Origin: a virus
IMG/VR virus record: IMGVR_UViG_3300043465_000197
Span: 1 to 36,132 of that record
DNA length: 36,132 nucleotides
Direction: 5' to 3' (one strand)
The position numbers were made by a program, and so were the translations under genes. Positions 9,237 to 30,158 of this stretch are shown here, in pieces (position 1 is the stretch's first letter; each line of letters starts with the position of its first letter). Below the pieces are notes generated by a model. The model did no database searches, was not told where the DNA came from, and worked only from the letters and a program-made list of their open reading frames with translations.

Positions 9237-9800
9237 TCAAAGCCCTCTGTGCTCCAAGTATTCTCTGATGAGGTTTTCTGCTGTGTCAATTTCGTCAGCT
9301 GTATGTCGGTGAATAAAAAGTTCACCCTTGAACTTATTGGGCACTCCTATGTAATAGAAGTTTGTCGGCGAATATCCAGTGAGGTACGAATACCATACAG
9401 CTTGAATGTGGTTGTAGTGCTTAGTCATGTCTTTGGCGAATGCTCGAAGCGTTGTGCAGGATGTCGTCTTGATGTCTGCATTGATGGAGTACATCGGGCA
9501 ATGCAAGTCGAGGATGCCTTTTGCTGCCACCTTGCGCCCATCAATCTCAATCTCCTTGATAAACGTGATCTCCTTTGCTGACTTATCGAATACCAAGCGG
9601 AGCATCGGGTGCTTCATGATGGCATCATAAACTTGGCGAGCATTGGGCGGCATGTCTTTGGGATCCATCTCAAGCAGGTTACGATGGAACTCCGCACCTC
9701 TCTCGAGAGCACCGGCAGCGTATTGGATGCTGCCAGTGTAGTGCCTCTTTATGCTTGATGCGTTGATGGCTTCGATGCTGTTGTAGATGTCGCGGCTCAT
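9237..9800 (-). CDS. RecE/ExoVIII-like PD-(D/E)XK exonuclease
   Basis: The 187-aa protein carries the compact PDDEXK exonuclease motifs: RGAEFHRNLLE with H39, an EIEIDGRKVAAKGILDLH block with catalytic D98, ADIKTT with D109-x-K111, and YNHIQAVWY with Q133. This matches the nuclease core of RecE-type 5'-3' exonucleases used with a single-strand annealing protein. It is shorter than most, consistent with a bare catalytic core. The start ATG overlaps the methyltransferase stop, and its first 13 coding bases are duplicated at the methyltransferase start. Confidence 0.85.
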   Translation of the reverse strand: MSRDIYNSIEAINASSIKRHYTGSIQYAAGALERGAEFHRNLLEMDPKDMPPNARQVYDAIMKHPMLRLVFDKSAKEITFIKEIEIDGRKVAAKGILDLHCPMYSINADIKTTSCTTLRAFAKDMTKHYNHIQAVWYSYLTGYSPTNFYYIGVPNKFKGELFIHRHTADEIDTAENLIREYLEHRGL

Positions 9801-9801
9801 T
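9787..9801. repeat. 15-nt direct repeat, copy 1 (methyltransferase flank)
   Basis: Plus-strand ATGTCGCGGCTCATT, identical to 10554-10568. It covers the start of the exonuclease gene (encoding MSRD). Confidence 0.9.
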
Positions 9802-10567
9802 GGTCAGAGTTTGTATTTGAAAAAAGACCAATTGCACTTTGTATGCGATTTCGTGCGATTTTAGAATATTCTTCTGTTATTTCGCTTCCAATCCAGTTCC
9901 TTTCAAGTTTATGAGCAACAATACCAGTTGTTCCACTTCCCATAAAAGGATCATAAATTAAATTTCCTTTTTCACTAAATGCGTTAATAAGTAAACCAAC
10001 TAACATTTCAGGGTAAATAGCTCCGTGAACATCACTTATTTTTTCACCTCTACCTAATCTTAAAATGTTATTCATTTCACCTCTTTTAAATTTAGCGTTT
10101 TGAATTGCTCTTCCTGCTCTTTTATCATCTTCAAGAATTAAAATCATTTCATAGCAACTATTCATTACTTGTCCGTGCATAGCAGGTTGCCCATGTCCTT
10201 TATCCCAAATAATAATATCCTTTATGTCCTTATTAAAATCCCCAATTATTTTGAAAAAGGCTTCCTTGCTTCCAGTTACTATTTGAAAGTTATAGCAAAT
10301 GATTTTTGATACTCTTAGCAATTCATTTAAAACTTCGGTGTGAAATGAATAAAATTCATCAATGGGCAAATCATCGCTAAAATGCTTATACTTTTTACTA
10401 AAATGTTCGCTTTTTTCTCTTGTGGTGTATTCGCCATTCCTTATCCTTGTTCGCATATTGTAAGGTGGTGAAGTAACTACCAAGTCTACAAACTTAGAAG
10501 GCATGCGTTTCAAAGTGTCAAGGCAGTTTTCGGTATAAAGTTTATTTAATTGCATGTCGCGGCTCAT
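9797..10567 (-). CDS. DNA adenine or N4-cytosine methyltransferase
   Basis: The 256-aa enzyme has the amino-methyltransferase catalytic motif TSPPYN at 32-37 and, later, the SAM-binding motif DPFMGSGTTGIVA from residue 206. The order IV before I fits the beta class. No restriction partner is adjacent, so it probably protects phage DNA from host nucleases. It is clearly more AT-rich than neighbouring genes. A 15-nt direct repeat (9787-9801 and 10554-10568) flanks it; deleting one copy plus the gene would join the 70-aa gene cleanly to the exonuclease gene. The target base cannot be told from sequence alone. Confidence 0.93.
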   Translation of the reverse strand: MSRDMQLNKLYTENCLDTLKRMPSKFVDLVVTSPPYNMRTRIRNGEYTTREKSEHFSKKYKHFSDDLPIDEFYSFHTEVLNELLRVSKIICYNFQIVTGSKEAFFKIIGDFNKDIKDIIIWDKGHGQPAMHGQVMNSCYEMILILEDDKRAGRAIQNAKFKRGEMNNILRLGRGEKISDVHGAIYPEMLVGLLINAFSEKGNLIYDPFMGSGTTGIVAHKLERNWIGSEITEEYSKIARNRIQSAIGLFSNTNSDQ

Positions 10568-10568: not shown

Positions 10569-10781
10569 TTACCCTATCTGTCTAACATCGGCCGGAATGA
10601 AACCTGATCCGTTGCCGTGTACCACTTTCATCATATCAACCTCAACCTTAGCTGAGTTGACAATCACCTGAGCGATGTCTGCGATTGCTTTTGCTTTGTC
10701 GAGCTCCATGTCGTTTTCTTTGAGCATCTCGATGATTTCGAATAGGTGATCCCTTAGATCTTCAATTTTATTTCTTGCCAT
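10569..10781 (-). CDS. Small helical phage protein (70 aa)
   Basis: Begins MARNKIEDLRDHLFEIIEML and contains ELDKAKAIADIAQVIVNSAKVEVDMMKV. This pattern of a short helical protein with an AQ-IVNSAKVEV segment is common in phage replication regions, but no function is assigned. It overlaps the HNH gene by 28 nt and its stop is 1 nt before the methyltransferase ATG. Confidence 0.75.
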   Translation of the reverse strand: MARNKIEDLRDHLFEIIEMLKENDMELDKAKAIADIAQVIVNSAKVEVDMMKVVHGNGSGFIPADVRQIG

Positions 10782-11359
10782 AACTTGTTTAGTGTTTTGA
10801 TTGTGTCTCTAATTGGTTTAGGATATTTGGTGATGGTGTTGCGCTGCATGTTCTCCACTTTCGTGATTGCTTCAAGGTTTTCTATCTCGAAATTTGAAAT
10901 GTTTTTATCTCGAAATGTCACTATCATGTGCGGCTCAAGCTTGCCGTGATGCTGCTCGTAGATGTGCCGATGTTTCAGCACCCACCTCGTATGCTCTGCA
11001 ATCTTGATGTATGTATATCCATCTTCATCGATGCGCTCTGAGCCAACCTCTCGGTGATTGGGCGGCACAGTGCCTTTCTTAAATTGCGATTCCTTACCAC
11101 CTATGTCAAGCCCTTTCATTCCTTTGTTCCAAGGCTTATGCCCTTTGTGGAACTGCGTTGCTTGGTTTCCTTTTTGCAGCCTACCACTTGCTTCTGTTGC
11201 CAGGTACTCTGGAGTCTTATGCAGCTGAAGTGCGAAGGCTTTGGAGTAACACTGGGCGATTGATTTCCCAGTTATGAATGCCACCTCTTTTGTCGACCGG
11301 TGCGGATAGTATTCAATCAGCAACTCGGTTTCTTCCATCGTCCAGTTAGAGCGACTCAT
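10754..11359 (-). CDS. HNH endonuclease with DNA-binding N-terminus
   Basis: The 201-aa product starts MSRSNWTMEETELLIEYYP, a Myb/SANT-like helix set. Two basic repeats follow (QFHKGHKPWNKG and QFKKGTVPPN), similar to NUMOD-type DNA-contact repeats. An HNH_3-type core is at about residues 126-165, with KHRHIYEQHHG, then D151-x-N153 and N156...NLE. It is either a free-standing homing-type endonuclease or a phage recombination/packaging nuclease. The frame is open upstream of this start, but the 78-aa gene occupies that region. It overlaps the 70-aa gene by 28 nt. Confidence 0.88.
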   Translation of the reverse strand: MSRSNWTMEETELLIEYYPHRSTKEVAFITGKSIAQCYSKAFALQLHKTPEYLATEASGRLQKGNQATQFHKGHKPWNKGMKGLDIGGKESQFKKGTVPPNHREVGSERIDEDGYTYIKIAEHTRWVLKHRHIYEQHHGKLEPHMIVTFRDKNISNFEIENLEAITKVENMQRNTITKYPKPIRDTIKTLNKLWQEIKLKI

Positions 11360-11582
11360 AATACTCGCGTCCTCCTTCTTCGCCTCCTTGTGATGACGGC
11401 CTTGGAAAGCGGTCGATGATTGCCTTCTGCCCATCGTGATAGCCATTGGAGTAGGCTTGGATGATTGCTTCTTTTACCTTGGCTTCCATGGTGTCATTGT
11501 CTGCTTCTCGCGGATCAATGATTGCATCAAGGTAGCGGTTGAATTGCGTGAATTCATAGTGGATGTTGTCGAATGTGCTCAT
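11346..11582 (-). CDS. Hypothetical protein (78 aa)
   Basis: A helical N-terminus (NIHYEFTQFNRYLDAII) precedes a typical EAIIQAYSNGYHDGQKAI motif and a polar C-terminal tail. Start and stop overlap neighbours by a few bases. Function unknown. Confidence 0.68.
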   Translation of the reverse strand: MSTFDNIHYEFTQFNRYLDAIIDPREADNDTMEAKVKEAIIQAYSNGYHDGQKAIIDRFPRPSSQGGEEGGREYYESL

Positions 11583-13354: not shown

Positions 13355-14002
13355 TTATTTTGCAGCACTAACTGCCGCAACTCCAATCAGCACTCCAACT
13401 CCCACCTTGAATGCGGTTGTCTGATGCCATTTCTTGTCTTGCTTGATGTAGATATTCTCCAACCCTACCACTTGCACATTCGGATTGTCGACTCTCAGGC
13501 GCACAACAGTATCCTTCTTCTTGAGGAGTCGGTTGACGAAGCCAGTGCGCATGGTGTCACCAACTGCATAGGTGAACTTAGCCGGAATCACTAAGCTATC
13601 AATCTGCAACCACCCGAGGCGGTTAATCATGCCGCCGATTGTATACCACTCGGTTTTCTTGAGGAATGGCTTTGGCAGTTGGATGTATGGCTGCTTGTCA
13701 ATCATCACGGTATCGCCTAACTTGATTTGCGTTTTGATGATTGTGCGAGTCTCAATCTTAACCAGCTCTGATGCGTTCTTGACTTTGACTTCTAACTCTG
13801 CAATCTGTTGTGCTTGTTTGGCTGCATCTGAGCCCGCCTGTGCGATTATCTTCTTCTGCGAGGCTATAACTATGCTGTCCTCATAAATCGTGTGCTTAAG
13901 GCGGTAATCATCCGCGATGTTTTCTCCGCAAGTTTTTAGCAACAAGAACAAGAGCACAATCAATGCGCCCAAATAAATCGTCTCAGTACGTACAGATGCC
14001 AT
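13355..14002 (-). CDS. Spanin-like membrane coiled-coil protein (DUF6808-like)
   Basis: The 215-aa protein has an N-terminal TM segment (about residues 9-23, YLGALIVLLFLLLKTCG). A charged coiled coil with KTQIKLGDTVMID follows, then a strand-rich part and a C-terminal glycine/alanine hydrophobic stretch. This layout resembles i-spanin-like proteins at the end of lysis clusters in Bacteroidota phages. Spanins link inner and outer membranes in the last step of lysis. The call rests on layout and place; no outer-membrane partner is seen. Confidence 0.65.
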   Translation of the reverse strand: MASVRTETIYLGALIVLLFLLLKTCGENIADDYRLKHTIYEDSIVIASQKKIIAQAGSDAAKQAQQIAELEVKVKNASELVKIETRTIIKTQIKLGDTVMIDKQPYIQLPKPFLKKTEWYTIGGMINRLGWLQIDSLVIPAKFTYAVGDTMRTGFVNRLLKKKDTVVRLRVDNPNVQVVGLENIYIKQDKKWHQTTAFKVGVGVLIGVAAVSAAK

Positions 14003-14165
14003 CTTGAATGAGTTTAATCAATGTCTTTGATGATTCCCAGAATAGTCGCTTGTCATTGAGCTCTGCTTGCAGGATTTGCAATGCCACGCATATAGGCATC
14101 TCACGCTCGATGACGTACCAAGCGGCAACCTTAACAAGTCTCTCGTCCGCTTCTTGGTCTGTCAT
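13983..14165 (-). CDS. Hypothetical small protein (60 aa)
   Basis: A short helical protein starting MTDQEADERLVKVAAWYVI. The ATG overlaps the stop of the PAS-DHp gene (ATGA), and its end overlaps the spanin-like gene by 20 nt. The tight coupling suggests a shared task with the PAS-DHp protein. Function unknown. Confidence 0.6.
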   Translation of the reverse strand: MTDQEADERLVKVAAWYVIEREMPICVALQILQAELNDKRLFWESSKTLIKLIQDGICTY

Positions 14166-14728
14166 AATTCTCGAGCGGCTTTTTTAACCAATGCCTTGAT
14201 GGCATCATCAAGCTTGTTAACTGATGAACTAATCATGCCGAGCAGTTCCTTGCGATCAATATCATCTGCCACATGATGCTGAATGAGCATTTGCACAAGT
14301 CCTGCGATGTTGGTCAGTGGCTGCCTTAACTCATGGCTAAGCATAAACCGGAACTCCTCAAGTAGGTTCTTTTGCCGCTCATGCTCATGCGAGCTTATTG
14401 AAGTTACATCGACTATCTGGATGCCAACAAAGTGTAAAGTGTCATCAATCGCAAAGCAATTCCAAACATTATATCTGTCGCTTGTGTTCTTCTGTCTTGT
14501 GCGAGCATACACTCTTGAAGGCTCAGGCGAATGCTTGCGAGCTCTATTAATGGCTTCGATAAAGTCTGCTTTGTCGCCTTCGATGCTGATGATATCAGTA
14601 ATCTTGTTTGGCTTGATATGGCTGACATAGTTCTTGAACAGTTCATTGTTCGTGAATATCTTACCTTCAAGGTCTGTGACCACATAAAAGAGGTCAATGG
14701 ATCTTTCTAAGATGAAGAGCGAAGACAT
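14162..14728 (-). CDS. PAS + DHp (HisKA) protein lacking the kinase ATPase domain
   Basis: The 188-aa protein has a PAS-like sensor domain at about residues 8-112: IDLFYVVTDLEGKIFTNNELF, then WNCFAIDDTLHFVGIQIVDVTS. A DHp/HisKA region at 118-185 carries the H-box FMLSHELRQPLTNIAGLVQML with H132 as the expected phospho-acceptor. Sensor kinases would continue with an HATPase domain (N, G1, G2 boxes), but the gene stops right after the second DHp helix. The stop is a real TGA overlapping the next ATG, so this is not an assembly cut. It overlaps the upstream TM-protein gene by 22 nt, inside the lysis cluster. It could accept phosphate from a host kinase or mix with host kinase dimers. Confidence 0.88.
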   Translation of the reverse strand: MSSLFILERSIDLFYVVTDLEGKIFTNNELFKNYVSHIKPNKITDIISIEGDKADFIEAINRARKHSPEPSRVYARTRQKNTSDRYNVWNCFAIDDTLHFVGIQIVDVTSISSHEHERQKNLLEEFRFMLSHELRQPLTNIAGLVQMLIQHHVADDIDRKELLGMISSSVNKLDDAIKALVKKAAREL

Positions 14729-15183
14729 GCCGAGAGTTCGCTATATAGATTATTCCATGCCGACATTGAGTTCCATGCCCAATGTGCAGTGATGTAAATT
14801 GTAAACACAAGCAGCGTTCCCATCACAGGCCCATCCATTGTCGGCTTGTACTCGGCGAACTCAGTGCGAGGCTTAATGATTATTTTTGCCTCTGGCTTAG
14901 GAGCAAGCAAGAATGCAGATGTGGTTGGTGTGATTGTATCGCTTGCGTAGGTTTGCTGCATAAGAGTCGGCTCTGGTATTGGCTCATCGGCAGGAAGCTC
15001 ATAAGTTTGCCCCCACTGATTAGTGCAATATTGCTTGCCAAAGATAGTGAATTTCACCATCGATTGGTAAACGATTTGCGGCTCGATATGAATTGTGTGA
15101 TGATGAGTATGGACTTTGCACCCAATGCCCACTACGCAGCCCTCGTCAATTGTAGTATACGTTGAGTCTCTTCCTTCATCCAT
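14707..15183 (-). CDS. Membrane protein of the lysis cluster (158 aa)
   Basis: I start at MDEGRDSTYTT (15183), overlapping the holin stop by 8 nt. Features are a His-rich KVHTHHHTIHIEP segment near residue 25, a proline-rich middle and one TM segment at about residues 118-137 (GPVMGTLLVFTIYITAHWAW). The large N-terminal part would lie on one side of the membrane with a short C-terminal tail. It may be an accessory or antiholin-like protein. Nothing identifies a family. Confidence 0.62.
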   Translation of the reverse strand: MDEGRDSTYTTIDEGCVVGIGCKVHTHHHTIHIEPQIVYQSMVKFTIFGKQYCTNQWGQTYELPADEPIPEPTLMQQTYASDTITPTTSAFLLAPKPEAKIIIKPRTEFAEYKPTMDGPVMGTLLVFTIYITAHWAWNSMSAWNNLYSELSACLRSSS

Positions 15184-15376
15184 TGTCGTTTGCTTTAGGG
15201 ATATAACCTGCTGCCACCATTGCGGCCACAATAGCTGCAAGAGTCTCTGTGGTTATCTGCTTAAAGATAAGCGCAAACACACTTGAGAGAATCACCAATG
15301 AGCCAATTGTCGGCCTCCAATACTTGATAAAAATATCGAGCACTTGCCTGGGCTTATTGACTCTTCTTGCGGCCAT
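15176..15376 (-). CDS. Holin
   Basis: The 66-aa protein has a basic N-terminus (MAARRVNKPRQ) and two hydrophobic stretches (about 23-38 and 44-58), ending AAGYIPKANDNG. Size, two-span topology and position right after the endolysin make it a good holin candidate, opening the inner membrane for endolysin release. The start at 15376 was preferred over the longer frame that runs back into endolysin coding sequence. Confidence 0.78.
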   Translation of the reverse strand: MAARRVNKPRQVLDIFIKYWRPTIGSLVILSSVFALIFKQITTETLAAIVAAMVAAGYIPKANDNG

Positions 15377-15381
15377 AATTG

Positions 15382-15837
15382 TCAAACGATTTTTGTAAAG
15401 TATAGTTGCGCCTCTTTTTTTCTTCTTCTTACAAGCCCAGTTGAAACCTCGCCGCCTGCCCTGTTCCACTTTGCGAACTCAGCTGCAATCTTCGGGTCGT
15501 TTGGGTTGGCTTTGATAAACCGCAACAGCTGAGACTTTGCAAGGTTTGCAGCACCGAGGTTGAATGCAAAACTTACAAGAGCATCAAACTGATTCTGATT
15601 GACCTTGGTTGTGTTAAGCAATCCAATAACACTTGCCTCAAACTCCTTAACATGATCCTTAAGAAGTTGCCCAGCTTGAGCATTAGTGATTGTCTGCCCG
15701 AGTTTTACCTTGCTGCCATCTGCATAGTAGGTCGCGCCGTAGCCAATTGTGGGCACTGATGCACTGCATAGGTAACTGGTCAAGCGCAAGCCCTCAAATT
15801 CCTGTATGAGGCGCAGGCCGTTGTCAGAGGTTTTCAT
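15382..15837 (-). CDS. Endolysin, GH24 lysozyme
   Basis: The 151-aa muramidase has the T4/lambdoid-type catalytic signature E15-8aa-C24-5aa-T30 (EFEGLRLTSYLCSASVPTIGYGAT). It is followed by the usual helical half with NQFDALVSFAFNLGAANL and a basic RRRKKEAQLY end. It cuts peptidoglycan for lysis. Cys replaces the more usual Asp at the second catalytic position, a known variant in this family. I start at MKTSDNG (15837), whose ATG overlaps the stop of the fibre gene upstream (TAATG). No signal peptide or SAR domain is visible, so the holin is needed for export. Confidence 0.95.
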   Translation of the reverse strand: MKTSDNGLRLIQEFEGLRLTSYLCSASVPTIGYGATYYADGSKVKLGQTITNAQAGQLLKDHVKEFEASVIGLLNTTKVNQNQFDALVSFAFNLGAANLAKSQLLRFIKANPNDPKIAAEFAKWNRAGGEVSTGLVRRRKKEAQLYFTKIV

Positions 15838-16319
15838 TAGATGATAATATATTGCATAGTACAATATACTGGAGTCAAGCCTAAAACTAATGATGAATTA
15901 TCAGTATTAACTTTTAAAACATTGCCAGAAATTGTAACATTAATATTTTCTTCAGTATCTACAACTCCGACTCCATATCCAGTACCAGTACCAATTGCAA
16001 ATGGCAAAGTAAAATTTAAAGTGCCAGTTAAAGCAATTGTAAAATCTAATTCAATATTTAAAAAAAATGTTAATGTTACTACATTCCCATTTTTTGAATA
16101 CATTCCATCTGGTCCTCCAGTTGATACAATTGCATCTGTTAAACTACTTAAAGTAGGTGCAAATGCAGCACTTGCATTAGCAGCCAAATTCCCCACCTCA
16201 ATGCTCTTCGATGTACCTTGAGGGGATTCCGTTGTGTCGGATATATCAACGATATATAATAGGTCTCCACTGGCTGCCGTAGCAAGTGGTGTTAAGTCGG
16301 TTATCTTTACTCCTGCCAT
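15837..16319 (-). CDS. Tail fibre-module protein B (160 aa)
   Basis: Residues 1-46 (from MAGVKITDLTPLATAASGDL) are nearly the same as the start of the adjacent 166-aa protein. The rest is a different beta-rich domain (TLTFFLNIELDFTIALTGTL, NVTISGNVLKVNTDN). The C-terminal part is strongly AT-rich while the shared N-terminal part is not. This is the look of small fibre or adhesin subunits with a common attachment domain and exchangeable tip domains. It lies just before the endolysin, where host-recognition genes often sit. Confidence 0.72.
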   Translation of the reverse strand: MAGVKITDLTPLATAASGDLLYIVDISDTTESPQGTSKSIEVGNLAANASAAFAPTLSSLTDAIVSTGGPDGMYSKNGNVVTLTFFLNIELDFTIALTGTLNFTLPFAIGTGTGYGVGVVDTEENINVTISGNVLKVNTDNSSLVLGLTPVYCTMQYIII

Positions 16320-23937: not shown

Positions 23938-25320
23938 ATGATAGGAGTTGCAATCACTACACACAACCGCAGAGATGTTGCACTGGATACTTATTCTATG
24001 TGGAAATTAATGCTTCCAGAAGGATCACAGATTGTTGTGGTAGATGATGCAAGTGATCAGCCTTATCCAAATGCAGATTATAGATTTAATGAAAATGTTG
24101 GAATCTCCAAAGCAAAAAACAAGTGCATTGAATTGCTTATTGAAAAAGGATGCGATGAAATTTTTTTAGCTGATGACGACACTTACCCAACCAATTATGA
24201 TTGGTGGAAAGCGTATGTTGAAAGCCCTCATCCATTGCTGTCGTATACATTCTCAATTGTAGGAAGAGGTACTCACAATGGCAACCGTCTAATAAAAAAT
24301 GATGGTGCACATAAGTGGTATTCTAATCCATGCGGATGTATGTTGTACATTAATAAGATTGTAGTCGACACCATTGGTGGATATGACACCGATTATGCGC
24401 TTTATGGTGATGAGCATCTGGACTATGCAATTCGAGCAAAGAATGCAGGCCTTATTCCATTCGAGTTTATGGATGTTTCAGATCCTCTTTTTTATTGTCA
24501 TGACCAAGCAGGCAACTATAAGACTTCTCGATTAGATGTTGCAGCTCAAAGCTATTTGAGCCACAGAAGACTTGCTCAGCAAAAAGAAAGCAAAGCTTTT
24601 ATTGATTATAAAGAAGTAGCAAATAAATTGCAGAAGCCTTATGTGCTGACAAGTTATTTTAACTATCTCAAGGATCCACAGCGCAGAAGTTTATTGCCTA
24701 ATTCAATCGAGCCACTTTTGCCGCTTATAAATAGCTGTGATATTTTAGGAGTGCGCTTAGTGATATTGACTAATTGCGACTTAGAGAATCAAGGGCACAC
24801 TGAATTTGTAAAGATTGAAAATCCGGATCATCAATTTACGCCAAATGATTTCCGATGGTTAGTGCAATTGGATTACATCCAAAAGAATAAAGCGAGCCAT
24901 GTTTGGTGCGTTGATTCAACAGATGTTGAGGTGCTTCGCAATCCTTTCGAGATTGATAAAAATGTTTTGTATGTTGGACATGAGCCAATGCAGACACTTG
25001 GCAGTGGTTGGCTGTGGCAGCATCAATGGAGATACTGCCAAAACAAAAACTATCAACAGAGGTTAAAAGAATCAAGGGCCTCAATTCTTTTGAACTGCGG
25101 TGTTGTAGGTGGCGAGTATGCTATTGCTCTTAGATTCTTTCAGCTAATGGCAAATGAAACATACTTTAATGCTAAGAAAGTTGGAAGAGCGATGGATATG
25201 GCCAGCTTTAATTATGTTGTGTATTCACACTTTGCTGATAGGTTTGTTGCAGGGCCTCACGTAGTGACTGAATTCAAAGCCTTTAAAAGAAACAACGTTG
25301 CAATGTTTAAGCACAAATAG
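23938..25320 (+). CDS. Two-domain glycosyltransferase (GT2 + GT-A-like), moron gene
   Basis: The 460-aa protein is the only plus-strand gene. Residues 1-210 form a GT2 domain: AITTHNRR at the start, VVVDDASD (33-40), the metal-binding FLADDD (76-81) and YGDEHLDYAIRAKNAG as the acceptor-side acidic motif. Residues 233-460 form a second GT-like domain with PYVLTSYFNY, a DSTD metal-type motif (326-329) and GSGWLWQHQW. Two domains suggest transfer of two sugars or a disaccharide. It is AT-rich, has its own promoter and ends 1 nt before the opposing head gene. Virion or host-surface glycan modification is inferred. Confidence 0.88.
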   Translation: MIGVAITTHNRRDVALDTYSMWKLMLPEGSQIVVVDDASDQPYPNADYRFNENVGISKAKNKCIELLIEKGCDEIFLADDDTYPTNYDWWKAYVESPHPLLSYTFSIVGRGTHNGNRLIKNDGAHKWYSNPCGCMLYINKIVVDTIGGYDTDYALYGDEHLDYAIRAKNAGLIPFEFMDVSDPLFYCHDQAGNYKTSRLDVAAQSYLSHRRLAQQKESKAFIDYKEVANKLQKPYVLTSYFNYLKDPQRRSLLPNSIEPLLPLINSCDILGVRLVILTNCDLENQGHTEFVKIENPDHQFTPNDFRWLVQLDYIQKNKASHVWCVDSTDVEVLRNPFEIDKNVLYVGHEPMQTLGSGWLWQHQWRYCQNKNYQQRLKESRASILLNCGVVGGEYAIALRFFQLMANETYFNAKKVGRAMDMASFNYVVYSHFADRFVAGPHVVTEFKAFKRNNVAMFKHK

Positions 25321-28178: not shown

Positions 28179-28715
28179 TCATCGGTGTATGATTGAGATG
28201 CCTCGCCCTTCAGTAGTGTTAAGCGTGACTGATTTATAATTCAATTGCTGTGCGTATTCAACTACCCTTAGTGGGCCTTCAAGATGTATGGTGTCGTGTA
28301 AAATAATTACACCGCCATCGCTCACAAGATTCTCCGCAAGTTTGAACTCTGTAAGAACATGCTCAAAGGTGTGATCTCCGTCCACAAAGATAAGGTCAAA
28401 ATGATTCTTAGGCAAGTTATTCAACTCATCAAGTGAATTGCCAAGTATAAAGTCAATCGATTTACCTCCAATGCTCATTGCTGCCTTGGTTACATCAGTG
28501 CGATAGTCATTGATGTCTATGCCAATAAACTGCCCACCCTTTGGCAGTGCTTTAATCAGATGCCTTGATGTTTCACCTTCAAACACACCAATCTCAATCA
28601 CAGTCTTGTACTTGCTCATCTTAATTAGCGATGCCAAAAATAAGCCGCACTCATCTTCAGAATTCCACTCATGTCGAGCAACTTTTTTCTTTGGCTTATT
28701 TTTTTCCATCGACAT
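28179..28715 (-). CDS. SAM-dependent methyltransferase (class I, O-methyltransferase-like)
   Basis: The 178-aa Rossmann methyltransferase has EIGVFEGETS (41-50) as the SAM loop, GIDIND (65-70) for ribose binding, DLIFVDGDHTFEHV (107-120) and GGVIILHDT. The VDGDH motif fits sugar or small-molecule O-methyltransferases better than DNA enzymes. It overlaps the upstream glycosyltransferase by 20 nt, so the pair probably acts together, with methylation capping an added sugar. A 54-nt gap follows before the portal. Confidence 0.85.
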   Translation of the reverse strand: MSMEKNKPKKKVARHEWNSEDECGLFLASLIKMSKYKTVIEIGVFEGETSRHLIKALPKGGQFIGIDINDYRTDVTKAAMSIGGKSIDFILGNSLDELNNLPKNHFDLIFVDGDHTFEHVLTEFKLAENLVSDGGVIILHDTIHLEGPLRVVEYAQQLNYKSVTLNTTEGRGISIIHR

Positions 28716-29622
28716 ATTTGTAATCTGTTATTCTGGTAAATAGATAATTATGCTTTTTGCCATCTTGCTGCATCCATGACTTCATCAATCTATCAAGCCA
28801 CTCTATGTAAAACATTGGAGTAAATCTCTTGCCGCCATAATAACTCATCACATAAAAGCTATTCTCAATCTGGTCAAAGGTCAATTCTCGTTTCATCTGG
28901 AAGCATACCGCTTCAATATTGTGCGGCGTTGTTTCTGTCAAGCATAGTGCAGCATTAAAATACAATTCATCTGGCTGCCCTCCGCCCCACTTCATTCGAA
29001 GCTTATGCAATGGCATTGGGTTATTTATAAACTGATCTGCTGCAACCTTAAAAAGATTAGCGCACACATCACCCTTCTTGATAAACTGAACGCTGCTATT
29101 GATGCCATACAACATAGCATCTTCCTTAATATTAAAGTGATTTATAAACTCATCAGCATAAGACCAAACCATCTGCTTAAAGTCGCGGCCATGATCTAAG
29201 GTATGAGTGCCGTGAATCGATGTGCCATAATCGATGCCGCTATCAACTAAGGTATCAATCAATGGCTGCAAATCTTTTAAGCAAACACCATCGACATCCA
29301 AATAAAGATTGTTGTCAAATGGTAGGTAATCGTAAAGCAAAACTTTCGCCTTGCCTGGATCTAATTTCTTATTCGTGTACATGTCCTGCGCTTGCAGTTC
29401 AACATGTAAATCGATGAACTGTGAAAGCTCGGGAACATAGTTAACTGCTCTTGTTCCAATATCCGAAACAAGTGCAATCTTAATATTTTTATTTGCTCGC
29501 TTAATTGAATAGGCGATATTGTAAACCATCCAAAAATATTGCGGCTTACCGAATGCAAGAAGCACCACTCCAGTTGATGGAGTGATGCTCTGAGTGGTTT
29601 GTGATTTAGATTCCTCGATCAT
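28696..29622 (-). CDS. Glycosyltransferase (GT-A fold)
   Basis: The 308-aa product starts MIEESKSQTTQ, its ATG overlapping the tail-gene stop (TAATG). It has VVLLAFGKPQYFWMVYNIAYSI at the N-terminus, KIALVSD and the metal-binding LYLDVDGVCL with D109-x-D111, like GT8-type or similar GT-A enzymes. An HGTHTLDHGRDF segment and WGGGQPDELYF follow. The product likely adds a sugar to a phage or host surface molecule. Confidence 0.82.
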   Translation of the reverse strand: MIEESKSQTTQSITPSTGVVLLAFGKPQYFWMVYNIAYSIKRANKNIKIALVSDIGTRAVNYVPELSQFIDLHVELQAQDMYTNKKLDPGKAKVLLYDYLPFDNNLYLDVDGVCLKDLQPLIDTLVDSGIDYGTSIHGTHTLDHGRDFKQMVWSYADEFINHFNIKEDAMLYGINSSVQFIKKGDVCANLFKVAADQFINNPMPLHKLRMKWGGGQPDELYFNAALCLTETTPHNIEAVCFQMKRELTFDQIENSFYVMSYYGGKRFTPMFYIEWLDRLMKSWMQQDGKKHNYLFTRITDYKYVDGKK

Positions 29623-30158
29623 TAGAATACACCTGGAGGCGCATCGTATTGTGCAGGAATGTTTTTGTTTCTCCAAGAGAAAGTCACCTCATAACGCTGA
29701 AGCTCGTTGTTCTGCTCAGGCAAGATGAAGTTTGCAGATGTTGTGATTCCAACTGGAGCAGTAATGTAGATTACCTTTCCGCTGTCACACATGTAAGCAA
29801 GTATCCAAGAGATACGGCGGTTGTTGACATCGTTCCAGAATACGCTGTTGCCATCAGTCACGTTAGCATCGTAAAGCGTAGCAGTACGATCTTCGTTGAT
29901 ACGTATTGCAGTACCGCAACCAATAGGTGAATCAACAGTAATAGGTGAACCGGCAGGAAGTGCAAAGCGGATGTCGCTAATCATTCTGGCTTCGCCAGAT
30001 AAAAGCAACGCCTCAACCTCAACTTCACTCGAAGGATTAACAAGCTCAGTGCCACAAGCACCGACAATGATGGCGGAAACTCCGCCCAGTTTATACTCAT
30101 TGCACACAACTAAGTCGTGCTCGAGCAATGAGGTATCGCAATATGATACACAGGCCAT
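29622..30158 (-). CDS. Putative tail tube or tail structural protein (178 aa)
   Basis: Beta-rich protein starting MACVSYCDTSLLEHDLVVCNEYKLGGVSAIIVGACG, with several cysteines and an acidic strand-loop pattern. Size and location near the tail genes suggest a tail-tube protein; no family motif proves this. It has its own -7 box in the gap upstream. Confidence 0.55.
   Translation of the reverse strand: MACVSYCDTSLLEHDLVVCNEYKLGGVSAIIVGACGTELVNPSSEVEVEALLLSGEARMISDIRFALPAGSPITVDSPIGCGTAIRINEDRTATLYDANVTDGNSVFWNDVNNRRISWILAYMCDSGKVIYITAPVGITTSANFILPEQNNELQRYEVTFSWRNKNIPAQYDAPPGVF

Follow-up and report, generated by a model that had tools for sequence, protein, structure and literature searches.

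A conserved PAS-DHp protein without a kinase domain encoded in the lysis cluster of uncultured phages

Spo0B and ChpT are DHp-type phosphotransferases, in which a DHp-like acceptor without autokinase activity occurs with a degenerate ATPase-like domain and no PAS domain. In Mycobacterium tuberculosis, Rv0600c/Rv0601c form a split histidine kinase, with the HisKA and ATPase parts located on separate proteins encoded side by side. The DHp alone can suffice for phosphatase activity in known kinases, as in domain A of EnvZ, and viruses are known to carry longer kinases occasionally. RetS of Pseudomonas aeruginosa, an inhibitor of GacS, is a kinase-dead HisKA protein which controls another kinase by three routes (PMC5992135). 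The residues that follow the phospho-acceptor His were studied in CrdS, HK1190, HK4262, and HK853, in all of which the acidic residue directly after the His was needed for kinase but not phosphatase activity (Willett and Kirby, PMC3510030). In the same four proteins, T or N at H+4 was needed for phosphatase but not kinase activity, and an N-to-Q replacement at H+4 of CrdS left phosphatase activity no longer measurable (PMC3510030).

The window, that is, the whole stretch of 36,132 nucleotides of viral DNA analyzed here, contained a PAS-DHp gene without a kinase (ATPase) domain at 14162–14728 on the minus strand. The gene was recognized from its ORF of 188 aa, its HisKA match, and its relatives, while the plus-strand reading of the same interval was stop-ridden. 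Pfam analysis of the window protein revealed HisKA (PF00512) on residues 129–179 with an E-value of 1.2e-8, above the curated cut-off; besides HisKA, no Pfam match exceeded its cut-off, and Hpt was absent among the matches in a scan up to E 1. Comparison with PHROGs matched residues 15–181 to a phage kinase family (9.1e-8). The ORF ended together with DHp helix 2, where the ATPase domain of a kinase would start.

The AlphaFold2 models, which were of moderate confidence (pLDDT 70 with 16 family sequences and 72 with 25), predicted strands and helices in a PAS-type order and, after them, two long helices, placed at residues 113–150 and 156–186 in the second model. The predicted PAS fold covered residues 10–107 (14408–14701, minus strand), and residues 11–105 of the model could be superposed on ARNT PAS-B with a VIA-align Z of 13.4 and 2.0 A over 93–94 residues. 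The DHp part, residues 113–187 (14168–14392, minus strand), was predicted as a two-helix hairpin in the single chain. Foldseek analysis revealed LOV-histidine kinases as the best solved structures, matched jointly by PAS and DHp at 2.5e-5 over about 200 columns. The flavin-binding LOV Cys motif was absent, and the sole Cys of the window protein, C91, was located in a late strand of the model. Thus, PAS plus DHp is supported by the fold evidence of AlphaFold2, Foldseek, and VIA-align, and DHp is supported by sequence too. Profile and predicted fold together show the anatomy of a kinase-less protein composed of PAS plus DHp.

A sequence-only reading of this DNA had described a PAS-like sensor and a DHp H-box with H132 that ended before any ATPase domain, and this description agreed with the HisKA match, the predicted PAS fold, and the lack of an HATPase_c match in the protein. 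The same reading had named a fold other than a four-helix DHp as a ground for refutation; the predicted C-terminal part was the two-helix hairpin of DHp. Its proposed profile search was borne out for HisKA, whereas PAS was not detected by Pfam in the window protein; among family members, the PAS profile TIGR00229 was matched below cut-off in 5 of 27, and PAS_9 was matched in one of the 27 (0.0091).

Relatives were searched in IMG/VR using the protein, its alignment, and four divergent relatives as queries. PAS-DHp relatives were distributed on approximately 300 contigs, and a single search yielded 307 stretches. A total of 183 distinct full-length proteins with identities down to 50.5% could be collected, each 186 or 188 aa long, depending on two residues in the hairpin loop. 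All 183 shared the same domain end. The alignment contained 46 invariant columns, the last of which was the third-last residue, and these included L180, K183, A184, and R186 of the tail. HisKA was matched in 32 of 32 phage records, 31 of them over the cut-off and the remaining one just below it. Three loci, L350, L351, and L352 (G033, G034, and G035), displayed a second weak HisKA-like match of 15–17 bits, below the cut-off, about 2.4–2.7 kb from the PAS-DHp gene.

The H-box was nearly constant throughout the family. The phospho-acceptor His132 (codon at 14333–14335, minus strand) was invariant in the 183 distinct proteins, as were R135, P137, and the Glu at H+1, E133. The H+4 position, which is Thr or Asn in HisKA phosphatases (PMC3510030), was occupied by Gln136 (codon at 14321–14323, minus strand) in 182 of the 183 proteins and by His in one. 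Loss of the His in homologues had been proposed as a refuting observation; none was found among the 183, and a collection scan for H-boxes in which the His codon was replaced by one starting with A, G, or T was likewise empty. In a subset of 113 sequences, 74 had CAT and 39 had CAC as the His codon; the mean dN/dS was 0.075 overall and 0.058 for the H-box segment. The use of both His codons together with the low dN/dS indicates that the acceptor His is selected at the protein level. Purifying selection on the family is strong, and the His and domain end shared by 183 relatives are far beyond chance. PAS-DHp also diverged together with its neighboring genes (Mantel r 0.40–0.87), and 0 of 200 permutations reached values as high. 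Given the invariant Glu at H+1 and the Gln at H+4, the family resembles a phosphorylatable acceptor that lacks phosphatase activity; by analogy with the characterized kinases, the H-box residues favor such an acceptor and argue against phosphatase activity. Alternatively, the conservation of the H-box could stem from dimer contacts with a host DHp instead of phosphorylation.

The genes surrounding PAS-DHp were all located on the minus strand. Upstream, p177 (14707–15240) was poorly conserved with a likely C-terminal TM segment as judged by eye, followed further upstream by a holin-like protein of 97 aa containing a single hydrophobic segment (15176–15469; ORF and locus comparison) and an endolysin of the phage lysozyme type (15382–15864; Pfam 4.3e-41). 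Downstream were p60 (13983–14165), a small, helical-looking protein identified from its ORF and relatives, and p215 (13355–14002), which had hydrophobic segments at both ends and was weakly similar to Rz spanins. The sequence-only reading had placed PAS-DHp inside the lysis cluster, translationally tied to both neighbors, and both overlaps were found in the window: p177 and PAS-DHp shared 22 nt (14707–14728), and PAS-DHp and p60 were coupled by ATGA (14162–14165). The 4-nt overlap with p60 occurred in 163 of 168 loci scored. The 22-nt overlap with p177 occurred in 90 of 172 loci, and nearly all others had a gap of 14–41 nt.

The gene order was checked in 33 loci from all clades and was retained up to the limit of each locus, as tail/fibre-side genes, endolysin, holin-like gene, (p177), PAS-DHp, (p60), p215, p95, p211, and p233; p177 and p60 were not detectable by similarity in every one of the 33. 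In these loci, all found using the PAS-DHp gene itself as query, the gene kept one position within the lysis cluster, where the earlier reading had placed it for the window. Relatives of p60 were 52–73 aa long with the conserved pattern L..E..MP...A...L, and no known family was matched by p60. In several clades, the p177 sequence was undetectable while a similarly laid-out ORF occupied the same place, e.g., 9015–9413 in L250. The p211 protein was similar to a phage protein annotated as putative ssDNA-binding. Further downstream of the lysis cluster, a DNA methylase (N6_N4_Mtase; 9797–10567, minus strand) and an HNH endonuclease (10754–11446, minus strand) were encoded. Methyltransferase and weak glycosyltransferase genes occurred among the virion genes (28179–29676, minus strand), and a 460-aa ORF with weak glycosyltransferase similarity was present on the plus strand (23938–25320), the window's other large genes all being on the minus strand.

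An HATPase supplied in trans by a neighboring phage gene had also been named as a refuting observation. No HATPase_c match was obtained in the window protein, anywhere in the window, or in 37 phage records including the window; HATPase_c_2 was found in 0 of 29 phage records and receiver (response regulator) domains in 0 of 34. Some of the phage records may be incomplete. Of 14 control genomes from bacteria and archaea, 12 to 14 were positive in these HATPase, receiver, and HisKA searches. An HATPase or receiver elsewhere in the phage was thus rejected for the records searched, and any ATPase would have to be supplied by the host. The few relatives of the portal protein were from Polaribacter and Bacteroides phages, and the primase carried a BT4734-like domain; based on these similarities, the host is probably a member of Bacteroidota. 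A search for a Bacteroidota promoter pattern gave 0 matches.

Regarding origin, the PhoR and PnpS models were matched by 27 of 27 diverse members with the best E-values of the named profiles overall. However, the PAS-DHp segments of six unrelated plasmid-borne PAS kinases matched these models at comparable or better E-values, so the likeness to PhoR is uninformative, and a PhoR/PnpS origin or specific likeness was rejected. The true PhoR of E. coli scored 223 and 372 bits on two PhoR models. Using short exact patterns, which diverged relatives would escape, the conserved PAS-DHp stretches were found in none of the GTDB genomes, and only distant kinases were found on plasmids. The named phage collection gave no match, and a divergent member used as query gave insignificant ones only. 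Nothing relevant on phage-encoded histidine kinases or two-component proteins was found in the open-licence papers searched. Membership in a defence system was considered and rejected, the only match in PADLOC being a weak one (HEC-02B, 0.0048).

The explanation that we favor, at slightly less than an even chance, is that the free-standing phage PAS-DHp acts as an accessory module for histidine phosphotransfer in a two-component system of the host, that is, a phosphatase-dead acceptor to which a host kinase transfers phosphate in trans and which diverts or relays phosphoryl flow late in infection. The protein would dimerize via its DHp, and His132 would receive its phosphate from a host kinase's ATPase domain, with the protein either as a homodimer substrate or in a mixed dimer. 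In a two-domain reconstitution of EnvZ, a free DHp was reportedly phosphorylated by a separate ATPase domain, which is a precedent for such an acceptor in trans. The phosphate may be held or handed to a host response regulator. Since H+4 is Gln, PAS-DHp should not be a response-regulator phosphatase, and its effect would be to draw off or redirect phosphate, or to maintain the regulator in its phosphorylated state, rather than to erase the signal. An intracellular cue may gate the module through the PAS domain, and p60 is a possible partner of the protein.

Several other explanations were weighed against this acceptor role, the first two of them as serious rivals. The phage DHp may instead pair with the DHp of a host kinase in an inactive mixed dimer, blocking autophosphorylation with no phosphate needed on the phage protein. 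A dimerization domain that is wholly kept while the ATPase domain is lost suits such a dimer poison, RetS HisKA was among the weak PDB sequence matches of the phage protein, and the kinase-dead core of RetS inhibits GacS autophosphorylation (PMC5992135). Blocking alone, however, leaves unexplained the invariance of the acceptor His and of the kinase-specific Glu at +1 in 183 proteins whose other DHp positions are free to vary, and we regard it as rather unlikely. A phosphate-independent regulator, in which the PAS sensor and two-helix stalk would signal conformationally to p60 or the lysis membrane proteins and set lysis timing, with the H-box as a structural heirloom, is likewise judged unlikely. 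The fixed position between lysis genes, the near-universal 4-nt coupling to p60, and the lack of a phosphorelay partner in the phage records searched are in line with it, but few stretches of the protein are as conserved as the H-box, and its His is invariant despite synonymous codon change. Gene position is the sole tie found between PAS-DHp and lysis timing.

Dephosphorylation of a host regulator by the DHp would require no ATPase, and the absence of that domain is compatible with it; yet the required T/N is missing at H+4 throughout the family, and the Gln found there is the very replacement that abolished measurable phosphatase activity in CrdS (PMC3510030), which makes this role very improbable. 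The missing ATPase domain could also mark a degenerating, functionless remnant of a captured kinase. Near-constant length (186/188 aa) with the same end in 183 proteins, 46 invariant columns, a dN/dS of about 0.07, and divergence congruent with the neighbors contradict this, and the broken-kinase remnant, whose probability is negligible, was rejected on the evidence of purifying selection.

The conserved half-kinase in the lysis cluster suggests that these uncultured phages plug into the signalling circuits of their host. A stronger form, proposed only tentatively and considered somewhat unlikely, is that the phage lineage produces a phosphatase-dead, kinase-less PAS-DHp along with its lysis genes and uses it to intercept phosphoryl flow in a two-component system of the host, thereby coupling host state to late infection or lysis. 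If host kinases do feed PAS-DHp, the protein would connect the virus directly to two-component signalling, and the natural Gln at H+4 predicts a protein that is phosphorylatable yet phosphatase-dead. What is new here is the kinase-less PAS-DHp at one fixed site by the lysis genes of so many contigs, not found in the named phage collection or the open-licence literature searched, and a family in which the Glu at H+1 never varies while H+4 is almost always Gln.

Comparison with the known systems places the phage protein among them with clear differences. Like RetS, it is a HisKA protein incapable of autophosphorylation that would act on another kinase. In RetS, a membrane hybrid kinase, the ATPase domain is degenerate and is accompanied by two receivers and an HExxT phosphatase motif, whereas the phage protein has no ATPase domain, receiver, or TM helix, and its motif is HExxQ. 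The mixed-dimer route of RetS may also be available to the phage protein, while for the receiver and phosphatase routes its sequence lacks the needed parts. YF1 (4gcz), SB2F1 (8a7h), and ThkA (3a0r) have the same order of PAS then DHp but continue into an ATPase domain where the phage protein stops, and the phage PAS is without the LOV cysteine motif. By description, PAS-DHp is set apart from Spo0B and ChpT by having a PAS domain and no ATPase-like domain, and from Rv0600c/Rv0601c by the ATPase half, which the phage was not found to encode. Some histidine kinases of phages and giant viruses (e.g., BFVD A0A6J5L941, PHROG 10912) also match PAS plus HisKA, but these are much longer, e.g., 528 aa, and are annotated as kinases. 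PAS-DHp without a kinase domain is a real, widespread, and unusual phage family, and a variant of the known two-component modules.
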